DNA from: Candidatus Fermentibacterota bacterium
Lineage (GTDB): Bacteria; JAFGKV01
DNA: 9,528 nt
Direction of reading: 5' to 3'
Assembly: GCA_030620115.1 (NCBI GenBank)
Contig: JAUXFG010000150.1
Coordinates: forward strand, 1-9,528
In this document: positions 2,781 to 7,660 of the stretch, piece by piece
Layout of the letters: each line of letters opens with the position of its first letter
Numbering within the stretch: position 1 is the first letter of the stretch
Made by a program: the position numbers and the translations under genes
Notes under the pieces: generated by a model
Seen by the model: only the letters and a program-made list of their open reading frames with translations
The model's database searches: none
Told to the model about the DNA's origin: nothing

Positions 2781-4037
2781 ATGTCAGGAATGAAGCACGC
2801 GCACACGTCGGTCATCGCTCTTGTGATGGCCGAGATATCGCTGGTCAGCCTTATGTGCTTGATGGCCGGTTGCAACGGCACGGGCAATGACGGCGAAGAA
2901 GCACTGCAGGCCATAACTACGCACGTGGTGACGGCATCAAGACAGCACGCCAAGATTGTGATCTCGGGAAAGCTGGAGGCCTGGGAGAACACCACGCTCA
3001 GCTTCAAGATCGGCGGGCGTATCGCATCGATCGCATGTGATGTTGGTGATTCGGCAGAGAAGGATTTCGACATGGCCGCTTTGGATCAAGCGGAGATCGA
3101 CGCTCGGGCTGTACAAGCCCGGCTGGGATACGAAAAGGCGAAAAGGGATTTCGAGCGCGTGCAGGAGCTTCACGATGAGAAGGCGGCAACAAAGGAGCAA
3201 TTGCAGGATATCACCACGGTCCTGGAAAATGCAAGGCAGCAGCTCAATGTGGCCCAATATAATCTCGAGCACTCCCATATCCGGGCGCCTTTTAATGGAT
3301 TCGTGACACAGAGGCGGCATGAACCCGGAGAGATGGTTCAGGCGGGCGACCCTGTCTTTGCCTTCATCAGTGACTCGGGGGAATTCAAAGCAAAGGTTGG
3401 TGTTGCCGGCCGACACGTGGGAAAGATCGCCACCGGAGACAGCGCACACATACGGCTCTCCGCATTGCCGCGCCGGTCCTTTGCCGGGACAGTCTCGCGC
3501 GTGGGATCAGCAGCGGATCGTATGACAGGAACGTTCCCAGTAGAAATCGCGGTGAAGGGTACTACCGGTGTGCTGCGGGCCGGCATGGTGGCCACTGTGA
3601 CGATATACGTCAAAGAGGTTCATGAGTCCTTCCTGATTCCGCCTGAGTCATTGATTGAAGCAGACGAGGATCGTGGATATGTGTTCATCTACCAACCATC
3701 TGATAGCACTGTGCACAAGCGCGAGGTCTTGATTGGGGAGGTGATGGGCGCCGAGATATCCATTGTTGGTGGCCTTCGTGCTGGTGATGAGATAGTGGAG
3801 GAAGGCGCACAATTCCTCGTCAGTGGTGATCGAGTACTTGCCCGCACTTCTCACCAGCTTCCTGCTGCGACAGCCGATATGGCTCTGTCTGCTGCGTTAC
3901 GCTCCTTCGGCTTCCTCACCGTATCGCAGAGGATACGCCTGCGGGAGCCTCGGTCGCAAGCCTTGCAGCCACAACCATTTCTCCCGTCTCGCGACGAAAG
4001 CCGGAGAGAAGTGCGGGCCAAGCACCTCGTCGGATGA
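2781..4037 (+). CDS. RND efflux periplasmic adaptor (HlyD/AcrA family) lipoprotein with altered C-terminus
   Basis: Predicted 418-residue membrane fusion protein joining the RND pump to the TolC-like channel. AAAGGAG (2769-2775) overlaps the preceding stop and precedes ATG 2781; a second in-frame ATG at 2790 is possible. A lipoprotein signal ends at LMAGC (Cys31), so the protein should be lipid-anchored in the periplasm. Domain order fits the family: first lipoyl half near 70-103, alpha-hairpin about 104-163, second lipoyl half with SHIRAPFNGFV (165-175) and EPGEMVQAGDPVF, beta-barrel about 200-280, and membrane-proximal domain about 283-352 ending in GLRAGDEIV...VSGDRV. Family members usually end soon after that point. 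Here residues 353-418 are a basic, proline- and arginine-rich tail encoded by the hairpin element at 3834-4025. The native end has probably been replaced. The core appears intact, so function is plausible. Confidence 0.9.
   Translation: MSGMKHAHTSVIALVMAEISLVSLMCLMAGCNGTGNDGEEALQAITTHVVTASRQHAKIVISGKLEAWENTTLSFKIGGRIASIACDVGDSAEKDFDMAALDQAEIDARAVQARLGYEKAKRDFERVQELHDEKAATKEQLQDITTVLENARQQLNVAQYNLEHSHIRAPFNGFVTQRRHEPGEMVQAGDPVFAFISDSGEFKAKVGVAGRHVGKIATGDSAHIRLSALPRRSFAGTVSRVGSAADRMTGTFPVEIAVKGTTGVLRAGMVATVTIYVKEVHESFLIPPESLIEADEDRGYVFIYQPSDSTVHKREVLIGEVMGAEISIVGGLRAGDEIVEEGAQFLVSGDRVLARTSHQLPAATADMALSAALRSFGFLTVSQRIRLREPRSQALQPQPFLPSRDESRREVRAKHLVG
3834..4025. repeat. ~190-bp long-hairpin (MITE/REP-like) element in the 3' end of the adaptor gene
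   Basis: Terminal inverted repeats lie at 3834-3852 and 4006-4025 and match over 19-20 bp with one mismatch and one gap. The inner 13 bp are perfect (GCCCGCACTTCTC with its complement). Pairing continues inward about the same centre (about 3929): 3880-3892 with 3965-3977, GGCTTCC (3909-3915) with GGGAGCC (3943-3949), and a perfect tip stem CGTATC (3920-3925) with GATACG (3932-3937) around a 6-nt loop. The whole unit therefore folds as one long interrupted hairpin. It encodes no transposase, and no target-site duplication is evident. It lies between two operon genes, so its transcript could act as an RNA-stability or processing signal, as REP elements do in malE-malF. That role is inferred. 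Confidence 0.8.
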
Positions 4038-4252
4038 GTAGCCACAACTGGCGGAACCATTCATGGAAGAAACTTAGCTCGGATTCGACGAAGCTTGGGA
4101 CAGAGTTTCGGGGAAATCGACGAGGCTCCCGATGAGGTTTTTGGGAGGAGGAAAGGGAAGTTCGGGACGGCGTTTCAGGTCAGGGGAAACAATGAATTCT
4201 CTTCACCGCATGTGGTGTTCGCACAATCAACCAAGAAGCAGAGGCTGAGACG
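4026..4252. other. Non-coding spacer between adaptor and pump genes, degenerate direct repeats
   Basis: After the adaptor stop (4035-4037) there are about 215 nt without a gene, unusually wide for an operon of this kind. Related motifs recur: CGACGAAGCTTGGGA (4086), CGACGAGGCTCCCGA (4118), CGATGAGGTTTTTGGGA (4129) and AAGTTCGGGACG (4159). They resemble the minus-strand sequence at 40-90. AGAGG (4240-4244) supplies the ribosome site for the pump. I see no convincing promoter or terminator. Confidence 0.6.
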
Positions 4253-7200
4253 ATGAGGTTACCAGCATACGCGATAAAGAACTATCAATTCACCATCATG
4301 GCCTTTGGCCTACTGTTGTTGATGGGACTCACAAGTTTCCTGACGATGCCCCGCTCCGAAGACCCGTATGTTGAGCCGCCTTTTGCCAACGTGATTGTCG
4401 TCGCCCCGGGAACGAGCGCCATCGATATGGAGACCGGTGTGGCCGATATCCTGGAAGATCGATTCAACGGTATCGAGGCGGTGAAGCACATCGACACGAC
4501 CATTGAAGACGGGCTGCTGCTCTCATCAATCAAGTTTGAGGCGGATGCCGACATGGATGAGCTCGAAGCACAACTGAAGCGCGAAGTCATGGCGGCATCA
4601 GCGGATTTCCCGCCCGGCGTGGTGGACTGGGAAGCATATACTTTCAGCATCCTCTACGTCAAAGTCCTGCAGATCGCCGTGGGAGGAACAGGCTACGAGC
4701 TGCGCGAACTATGGAACTACGCCGATGTGATCAAAGATGAGCTACAGAAGGTGCATGGGGTCACCAACGTTGAAGTAGTCGGCTATCCCGGCGAGGAAGT
4801 GGCCGTGACCTTGCATCCTGAGCGGCTTTCGCAGTATGGGGTACCAATAACGGCGGTATTCCAGGTACTCCAGACGAATAGCTCCAATATCCCTGGAGGC
4901 GAAGTCAGAATCGGAGAGAGACGATTCAACTTGAGGACCAGTGGCAAATATCAGAGCCTGAAGCAGTTGGGGGGAACCGTCATCGGTGCCAACGACGGCG
5001 GGGTGGTCTATCTCCGAGATGTGGCTGATATCGGCTACCGCTATTCCAGACCGCGATTCAAGATCTTCCACGGCGGTGGTCCTGCGCTGCTCGTCACGCT
5101 CGAACAGCAAAAAGGCGAGAACCTTCTCAAGATCAATGATCAGATGAAGCAAAGATTGGAGGATCTCGAGAGCCGCCTCCCCCCCGACCTGTCCGTCAAA
5201 GTGGTTTTCGAACAAGCACAGTCTGTCCGCCAACAGGTCAACGCCTTCTTCGGCAACCTGATGCAGGGGATTTTGCTCGTAGGAATCGTAGTCCTGCTCC
5301 TGATCGGCGCTCGGCCCTCCATAGTGATCATGCTCGCGATCCCCACCTCTCTCATCATGTCCATAGGCTTCATCGATCTGAGCGGTTTCGGGCTGCAGCA
5401 GATGACCATCACGGCACTGATCATTTCTCTCGGTCTCTTGGTGGACAATGCCATTGTCATAACTGAAAATATCCAACGATTCTTGAACGACGGCCACCCC
5501 CGGCTGAAAGCTGCCCAACTGGGTGCGGCGGAAGTCGGCTGGCCGGTAGTATCAGCCACGGCAACTACGGTGCTCGCCTTTGTCCCCCTGATGTTGATGA
5601 AGGATATGACCGGCGACTATATGCGTTCACTGTCGGTAGGGATTGCCATCACCCTGATCTGTTCGCTCGTTGTCGCCGTGACGCTCTCCCCCATGATCTC
5701 CTACCATGCGTTGACACCAATCCGTGAGGCGAAGGTACGCCGGGCCAAACGCCTGTTCGACCGAATCGTTACCCAAAGATATCGGCCTTTGCTTGCCAAG
5801 GCATTGAGACATCGGAAGACCGTGCTTCTCCTGGCATGTGGTGTGTTCACCTGCGCCCTCCTGCTCTTCCCCCTGGTCGGAATCAGCTACTTCCCCATGG
5901 CCGAGAAGCCGCAACTGCTCGTGAATGTACATCTTCCACGGGGAGCATCTTTGGAGAGAACGGAGTCAGTGGTTCTTGGCCTCGCCCGAAGCCTCAAGGA
6001 GAAGCCTGAGATAGTCGACATGGTGAGCAATGTCGGGAAAGGCAATCCTCCGGTGTACTACAATATGGGAGCGGCGCCGGAGAAGAACCACTTTGGTCAG
6101 ATTCTATTGCAGTTGGATCCGGGTCTCTCGCTGCAAGAGATGAATGAGCTTGCACAAGAGCTCCGCCACCAATTCGCCGCGGTTCCCGGCGCACGGGTGG
6201 AAGTCAAACAGTTCCGGCAAGGACCGGGGGGCGGGGCGCCCATCGAGGTGCGGGTCATTGGTGATAATCAGCGTGTGCTGAAGAAGCTTGGGGCCCAAGT
6301 AAAGACCATAGTCGAAAACACGCCGGGTTGCATCAATGTACAGAATCCTTTGGAGCTGGATGCCATTGATCTCAAGCTGAATATAGATCGCGACAAGGCG
6401 GCCCTGCTCGGTGTCTCCCTGATTGATATCGATCGAATCGTCCGTCTCGCGGTCAGTGGCGTCCCGGTGGGCTCCTATCAGGATGACGCCGGCGACCTAT
6501 ATGACATCGTCCTTCGATTGCCCGAGACAGAAGACGAACGTTTCGCTGACTTCGATCTGATCTCTTTGCCGAGTCGGCACGGAGAGATCCCGCTTGCCCA
6601 AGTTGCACACGTTGCCTTCACGCCAGGCTACAACGTTGTCCAACACTATGATCTGGACCGCGCGGTGACCATTACCGCTGATATCATGGGCCGTGAAGTC
6701 GAGCCGGTGAATCGCGAGATCCAAGCAAAACTCAAGGAAATCAATCTTCCAACCGGCTACCGCTTTCTTCTTGGTGGAATCGAGGAACAGCGGGGGGAAT
6801 CGTTCAACAGCCTCGCGCGTGCGACGCTCATCGCGGTCATCGGCATCTATGGAATCCTTGTGCTCCAGTTCCGGTCGTTCCTCCAGCCCTTCATCATCTA
6901 TGCAACGATCCCCCTGGCGGTGGTTGGTTCCGTCCTGGCGCTCCTGGTGACCGGGTTCAGCTTCAGTGTGTCGGCGTTTATCGGCTTCGCGAGTCTCATC
7001 GGCATTGTGATCAACAACGCCATCATCCTTGTGGACTACACAAACCGGCTGATCGCCCAAGGAATGGACAAGACCGAAGCCTTGCTCACCGCCGGGTCAG
7101 TCCGCTTCAGACCGATCATTGCCACCACCCTCACCACCATCGGCGGACTCCTCCCTCTCACCCTACTGGGAAGCAGCCTTTGGGCTCCTCTGGGATTGGT

Positions 7201-7330
7201 GATCATGGGCGGGCTTTCCATGTCCACAGCCCTGACCCTGCTGGTGGTGCCGGTTCTCTATCATATCCTGGTGAAGGAGCCAGACGCGGCCTCCGGCCGC
7301 CATCCGCCGACCGATGGATCATGTCGGTGA
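4253..7330 (+). CDS. RND-family multidrug efflux pump, inner-membrane permease (HAE1/AcrB-like)
   Basis: Predicted 1025-residue proton-driven exporter, normal length for the AcrB/AcrF group. ATG 4253 has AGAGG 8 nt upstream, and the first helix (about 10-31) follows directly. The fold is the standard internal duplication: TM1, a periplasmic loop of about 300 residues, TM2-6 (about 338-482), TM7 (about 521-541), a second large loop, and TM8-12 (about 854-1003). TM4 carries GLLVDNAIVITENI: Asp398 matches AcrB Asp407, while Asn399 replaces Asp408. TM10 carries GIVINNAIILVDY, where Asn921 replaces AcrB Lys940. This D-N plus N-N pattern occurs in a known branch of HAE1 pumps and differs from the D-D/K relay of AcrB. 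It lacks the TM4 signature of the heavy-metal (CzcA) branch. The cargo cannot be read from sequence, but drugs, detergents or lipophilic metabolites are typical. Confidence 0.94.
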   Translation: MRLPAYAIKNYQFTIMAFGLLLLMGLTSFLTMPRSEDPYVEPPFANVIVVAPGTSAIDMETGVADILEDRFNGIEAVKHIDTTIEDGLLLSSIKFEADADMDELEAQLKREVMAASADFPPGVVDWEAYTFSILYVKVLQIAVGGTGYELRELWNYADVIKDELQKVHGVTNVEVVGYPGEEVAVTLHPERLSQYGVPITAVFQVLQTNSSNIPGGEVRIGERRFNLRTSGKYQSLKQLGGTVIGANDGGVVYLRDVADIGYRYSRPRFKIFHGGGPALLVTLEQQKGENLLKINDQMKQRLEDLESRLPPDLSVKVVFEQAQSVRQQVNAFFGNLMQGILLVGIVVLLLIGARPSIVIMLAIPTSLIMSIGFIDLSGFGLQQMTITALIISLGLLVDNAIVITENIQRFLNDGHPRLKAAQLGAAEVGWPVVSATATTVLAFVPLMLMKDMTGDYMRSLSVGIAITLICSLVVAVTLSPMISYHALTPIREAKVRRAKRLFDRIVTQRYRPLLAKALRHRKTVLLLACGVFTCALLLFPLVGISYFPMAEKPQLLVNVHLPRGASLERTESVVLGLARSLKEKPEIVDMVSNVGKGNPPVYYNMGAAPEKNHFGQILLQLDPGLSLQEMNELAQELRHQFAAVPGARVEVKQFRQGPGGGAPIEVRVIGDNQRVLKKLGAQVKTIVENTPGCINVQNPLELDAIDLKLNIDRDKAALLGVSLIDIDRIVRLAVSGVPVGSYQDDAGDLYDIVLRLPETEDERFADFDLISLPSRHGEIPLAQVAHVAFTPGYNVVQHYDLDRAVTITADIMGREVEPVNREIQAKLKEINLPTGYRFLLGGIEEQRGESFNSLARATLIAVIGIYGILVLQFRSFLQPFIIYATIPLAVVGSVLALLVTGFSFSVSAFIGFASLIGIVINNAIILVDYTNRLIAQGMDKTEALLTAGSVRFRPIIATTLTTIGGLLPLTLLGSSLWAPLGLVIMGGLSMSTALTLLVVPVLYHILVKEPDAASGRHPPTDGSCR

Positions 7331-7464
7331 ACAACTACTTCGGTCGAAGCCCTCGTACGAAGTTGAATGCTCATGTAGGTGTGGCACGTGTATGCCATTG
7401 GTACAGATAAGGGCGGAGGGAAACGACTTGCTCAGCACAAATTCCACATTCCCCCTCCTCCCCC

Positions 7465-7565
7465 AGATTCTTCGGTCGCCCCGCTCCCTCAGAATGACAC
7501 GCAGTGCCACATCCGCCTGCGCTCCACCCCTGTCATTCTGAGCGACTGCAAGAAGCGAAGAATCT
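7465..7565. repeat. 101-bp imperfect palindromic repeat, copy B
   Basis: Arms 7465-7498 and 7532-7565 are identical to those of copy A (94-127 and 161-194), in the same orientation and with the same total length. The central 33 nt have diverged except for the ACGCARTGCCAC start. The flanking CCTCCTCCCC before and CTCCTTGCC after are also shared. Together the two copies bracket the whole efflux operon, about 7.4 kb apart. Confidence 0.85.
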
Positions 7566-7660
7566 CTCCTTGCCCCCATTTTCCTCTCCTCCTGCTCAAT
7601 ACCTCATCACCTTCCGCCCTTTGCGCCTCACCCCACAATCCCATCCCCATCTCCTTTCCC

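Follow-up and report, generated by a model that had tools for sequence, protein, structure and literature searches.

The window, a 9,528-nt stretch of DNA from a Candidatus Fermentibacterota genome, carries an efflux operon whose ORFs and Pfam matches give the order MerR-type regulator, TolC-like outer membrane protein, adaptor and RND permease. The last part of the adaptor gene lies within a long palindrome (Table 1), and this raises the question of where the end of the protein came from. In a first-pass annotation made from the letters alone, the palindrome was read as a non-autonomous element inserted into the last codons of the gene. The copies of the element, their fixed ends and the homologues that lack the tail all agree with this reading, while several of its details have been revised.

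Table 1. Features of the adaptor gene, the palindromic element and their surroundings (window positions)
Feature	Position	Strand	Basis
RND efflux adaptor, HlyD/CusB-type membrane fusion protein, 418 aa	2781..4037	+	Pfam HlyD_D23, HlyD_3
RND permease, same operon as the adaptor	4253..7330	+	Pfam ACR_tran; gene order identical in L089
MITE-like palindromic element, 179 bp	3840..4018	+	TIRs, BLAST copies, aligned copies
Left terminal inverted repeat (TIR)	3840..3860	+	Inverted-repeat search
Right TIR, GGAGAG versus GGTGAG in most copies (TGA in the adaptor frame)	3998..4018	+	
Left target dinucleotide, TT (consensus TA)	3838..3839	+	Copy flanks
Right target dinucleotide copy, CA (consensus TA)	4019..4020	+	Copy flanks
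Inferred former end of the adaptor gene (S T S S D E, then stop TAG), out of frame at present	4021..4041	+	Flank joining
Stop codon in present use, TGA, product of the shifted frame	4035..4037	+	

The palindrome at the adaptor 3' end

The flanking sequences of 117 copies served to set the limits of the element. The two TIRs are 21 nt long and 90% complementary, and they are the sole inverted repeat detected in 3600-4300; an element bounded by TIRs had been proposed before, and this part stands, with its limits moved inward from 3834-4025 and its TIRs lengthened from 19-20 bp. The element is an imperfect palindrome that forms one rod, with the loop at element positions 87-92, that is, around 3929 of the window. 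The region 3820-4050 folds at -91.9 kcal/mol (z = -3.19), and none of 200 shuffles was equally stable. Further support for self-pairing about a single centre near 3929, also claimed earlier, was provided by compensatory changes in the 34 copies of the same length. A search of the window against Rfam returned no family at the gathering threshold, and the TIR strings were not found in the literature searched.

Two other repeats occur in the window. The interval 4050-4187, between adaptor and permease, is a different, second dispersed repeat, fragments of which match about 40 places in the genome. A third repeat is present in two copies (89-203 and 7460-7574; 90% identity over 115 nt), and each of them is an imperfect palindrome with TGTCATTCTGAG inside.

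A dispersed family with fixed ends

The host assembly comprises 4.1 Mb in 296 contigs and is estimated to be 98% complete. BLAST against this genome returned at least 40 matches per query on many contigs, at 80-98% identity (the best 40 of about 300 candidates), and the TIR pattern, with up to two mismatches, gave 269 + 277 = 546 hits, against 2 + 2 = 4 for the reversed control pattern; the further copies that had been anticipated are therefore present. From stretches around the copies, 118 distinct paired copies were read, with 40-411 bp between their outer ends, nested ones included, and the commonest length is 179 bp (34 of the 118). The copies are short and non-autonomous, as a transposase-sized frame is absent between the TIRs of all 118.

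The target is YTAR, with the TA duplicated. Among the 117 copies with flanks, the dinucleotide TA stands at the left end in 93, at the right end in 89 and at both in 72; outside it, most copies have C or T before and G or A after, and no duplication longer than 2 bp was seen in this set. Removal of the inner copy and one dinucleotide from the nested copy L009 leaves GGGGTCCTCAGTCGCAAGCCTAGCATTCAGAACC, which has the length of uninterrupted copies (GGGGTCCTCAGTCGCAAGCCTCGCATTCAG...), indicating that each insertion brings in the element and duplicates 2 bp. Nesting of one copy within another occurs at an identical position in L007, L008, L009 and L012, which suggests that the nested composite may itself have spread.

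Within the genome, compensatory changes mark 13 of 40 pairs across the 34 copies of equal length, and for paired cells, double changes and covariation score alike, not one of 500 shuffles attained the value of the real alignment. Four genomes outside the phylum also have full-length copies, of 177-178 bp, with TIR hits numbering 4 in G373, 127 in G274, 18 in G358 and 72 in G120 (controls 0-1); in the two other genomes of the host's family the element was not found. A cross-genome alignment of 17 sequences has compensatory changes at 28 of 48 pairs (116 such cells, against 37 in shuffles), and 92% of its cells are paired, compared with 32-45% in slid controls. Because of the compensatory changes at 28 of 48 pairs, the hairpin itself is maintained; the pattern fits either selection that keeps the arms paired or a process by which one arm is repeatedly corrected to match its partner. 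The palindrome thus belongs to a large, dispersed, MITE-like family whose copies have fixed ends and duplicate 2 bp of the target, and whose full-length hairpin is maintained. Six viral contigs of IMG/VR (L197-L202) also carry the TIR; in four of them it lies about 105 bases from the contig end, where it would be expected if the repeat interrupts assembly.

MITEs derived from IS630/Tc1-mariner transposons duplicate a TA target, have short TIRs and are without coding capacity, and the element shares all three properties. The TA duplication hints at an enzyme of this type, yet the cognate DDE_3 transposase had no match in the assembly, estimated to be 98% complete, so that IS630/Tc1-mariner parentage is putative. 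No transposase between these termini was found in the part of the genome read. Two ISAzo13-type transposases were considered as mobilisers but received no support, as their flanks are without these TIRs.

Origin and reading of the adaptor tail

Residues 1-352 are the conserved part of the adaptor, and residues 353-418 are element-derived or frame-shifted. The motif GDRV occupies residues 349-352, as the first-pass annotation had noticed, and the alignments with homologues extend just to about residue 352. Sixteen of the 18 complete homologues end 4-17 residues beyond the equivalent of residue 352, which answers the question, put forward with that annotation, of whether homologues carry the same 66-residue tail: they do not, although the tails of two, L084 and L088, are longer, at 31 and 56 residues. 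The closest homologue, in L089 (Acidobacteria bacterium isolate Zod_Metabat.1058), is 51% identical over residues 21-352 and lies in a syntenic operon of MerR, TolC-like, adaptor and RND genes; its adaptor has a short tail, ending GDQVEKVQAQAGGEK. In a search of 60 genomes, residues 353-414, like the C-terminal 60, matched solely element copies in the host's own genome. When the window flanks are joined with one TA, the result is GLRAGDEIVEEGAQFLVSGDRVLSTSSDE followed by a stop, that is, an adaptor ending in GDRVLSTSSDE, seven residues past GDRV. By this joining, the gene would formerly have ended in that way; the 2-bp duplication is seen directly in the nested copies.

The tail, of which LPAATADMALSAALR is one predicted peptide, comprises 60 codons of the element (residues 354-413) and five residues, KHLVG (414-418), of the frame-shifted native tail. 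The claim that the final ~66 residues come from the element therefore holds for 354-413 and not for 414-418. The earlier statement that an open frame was retained also needs qualification: the frame is open, but it is a shifted one, 181 nt having been inserted, and the loss of a TGA was required as well. In most copies this frame meets a TGA once, within the right inverted repeat (GGTGAG), and the window copy, alone among 34 aligned copies, has A at that position. As GGAGAG contains no TGA, reading runs on into the out-of-frame old tail and ends at its TGA, which begins 15 nt after the right dinucleotide and not, as first placed, 10 nt beyond the element. The change from GGTGAG to GGAGAG may predate or postdate the insertion. 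Stop codons are scarce in the element as a whole: the window copy has 3 over six frames, where its shuffles average 9.7 and 0.1% of them go this low, and the consensus has 5, where the shuffles average 11.5 and 0.4% go this low. In the predicted protein model, pLDDT is 80-98 for most of residues 41-350 and 41-54 in the tail, which therefore has no confident predicted fold. The tail is predicted to be translated and stable, and is most likely tolerated rather than useful. A longer reading, in which the adaptor frame would go on past the TGA and end at a stop that overlaps the permease start (71 open codons), was given up: among shuffles of that stretch, 18% are open in the frame concerned and 50% in at least one of the three frames.

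Insertion of a mini-transposon into the last codons of the adaptor very probably produced the tail of about 60 residues. A MITE-like, non-autonomous mini-transposon with TIRs of about 21 bp, a YTAR target and TA duplication would have entered at a CTA codon, seven codons upstream of the adaptor stop, and the gain of 181 nt would have shifted the ribosome into a frame almost free of stops across the element. With the TGA of the right TIR lost, translation would cross the element, enter the frame-shifted old tail and end at the TGA there. The outcome would be an adaptor of 418 aa with a basic tail beyond the conserved membrane-proximal domain, and a putative RNA rod between the adaptor and permease coding regions that may alter operon expression. 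Against this history, the target dinucleotides at the window copy have decayed, being TT and CA rather than TA, the part of the genome read yielded no transposase with these termini, and the assembly that holds the window is in 296 contigs.

The opposite course, in which the adaptor had the tail from the start and its gene was the source from which the repeat spread, so that the resemblance would be secondary, could draw on the open frame and on the two homologues with tails of 31 and 56 residues. It has next to no chance of being correct, as residues 353-414 match element copies alone, these copies sit at unrelated sites with fixed ends and TA duplications, and, of the 18 complete homologues, 16 stop at most 17 residues beyond the equivalent of residue 352. 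Only slightly more credible, and still very improbable, is a chimeric join at the repeat, by which the adaptor and the downstream DNA would not be contiguous through the copy. Such an error might be suspected in a metagenome-type assembly of 296 contigs with an abundant repeat, some other copies of which lie at contig edges (L010 and L014); against it, the adaptor is followed by the permease as in L089, the joined flanks give a sensible frame with a stop at the expected length, and the window copy is at most 97% identical to every other copy found. The elongated gene might also be decaying in the manner of a pseudogene, with the pump out of use, and the frame-shifted C-terminus and the further dispersed repeat between adaptor and permease would fit such decay, but it is unlikely given that the four operon genes are otherwise full length with intact domains and just seven terminal residues were lost.

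A larger, although still minor, share of belief goes to the possibility that the RNA hairpin between adaptor and permease (an mRNA end, an RNase III site or an attenuator) is what matters and that the protein tail is a by-product. The element stands within the operon, directly ahead of the permease gene, and compensatory changes maintain the full rod in the host genome and in the four genomes outside the phylum. However, copies occur at many unrelated places and in both orientations, and hence the pairing is a property of the element rather than of this operon.

Other insertions and comparison with known systems

The insertion favoured here for the adaptor has counterparts elsewhere in the genome. 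Element-read C-termini were found in an aromatic amino acid lyase (Lyase_aromatic; L011), an RlmN-like radical SAM protein (L005) and a protein of metallo-beta-lactamase fold (L015), in each case with 8-14 codons from the element. An in-frame copy of 204 nt (L134:1365-1566) forms a 68-residue internal insert, with a signal peptide on one side and a BNR/sortilin-like domain on the other, and L045 is similar, with an in-frame copy of 180 nt. The 195-nt copy at L122:1045-1237 shares its frame with a 2,3-BPG-independent phosphoglycerate mutase and precedes the catalytic domain (iPGM_N) of that enzyme; here, initiation at a codon downstream of the element is an alternative to an in-frame insert. 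The overlap of an ORF with the element in a ClpB-like gene (L124) was set aside as spurious: four positions of the right TIR are mismatched, and this TIR falls inside a conserved domain.

Copies in frame inside genes are a minority, most being located at the ends of genes or outside coding sequence. When sites were sorted by a simple scheme built on ORFs, copies proved to be depleted within genes (13 of 109 copies fell there, compared with 240 of 617 YTAR sites; p ~1e-8). Stop codons, relative to intergenic sites, are somewhat enriched (15 versus 66 copies, where 26 versus 295 were expected; p = 0.012); the signal, based on 109 sites, is of moderate strength and concerns one category among several examined. 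A stop-codon preference is easy to rationalise, because Y-TAA and Y-TAG fit the target and TA followed by the first G of the element rebuilds TAG. On a more speculative level, the length of 177-179 bp and the full-length imperfect rod may have been selected as such in a structured element common to distant lineages, with base pairing along the whole element, in the form of RNA or single-stranded DNA, needed for its spread; starting with G and targeting TA, it would enter TAA and TAG stops and rebuild TAG, and gene ends would be a safe harbour from which occasional read-through creates new C-termini.

The locus offers a clear, dated-looking example of a mobile hairpin that wrote a protein end, in a phylum represented by three genomes. 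More than 100 insertion sites in one genome, including gene ends, stop codons and in-frame inserts, bear on how often mini-transposons make protein sequence, and the cross-lineage set bears on why a non-coding transposon keeps its hairpin paired from end to end.

The family appears to be new, set apart from known ones by their descriptions and by the lack of an Rfam match, whereas MITE-derived protein ends have already been published for Coxiella QMITE, enterobacterial RU and Rickettsia RPE elements. QMITE1 and QMITE2 of Coxiella burnetii are non-autonomous palindromic mini-transposons that supply the stop codon or last residues of genes, such as the 33 C-terminal residues of EnhC in the Dugway strain, which come from QMITE2 (PMC5896051). 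The present element is likewise palindromic and non-autonomous and writes gene ends; likened by description, it differs in host and copy number, and the adaptor tail is about twice as long and spans the whole element. RU-1/ERIC-type elements of enterobacteria share the TA duplication, the stem-loop and C-terminal fusions, e.g., the ECA3499 amidase, but measure 127, 168 or 103 bp, as opposed to 177-179 bp here, and in that paper are confined to enterobacteria (PMC2759123). Rickettsia palindromic elements are palindromes of about 150 bp inserted in frame in coding sequences (reviewed in PMC10969869); the comparable in-frame inserts here are those of L134, L045 and L122, whereas the present family, again likened by description, lies mostly outside coding sequence or at gene ends.
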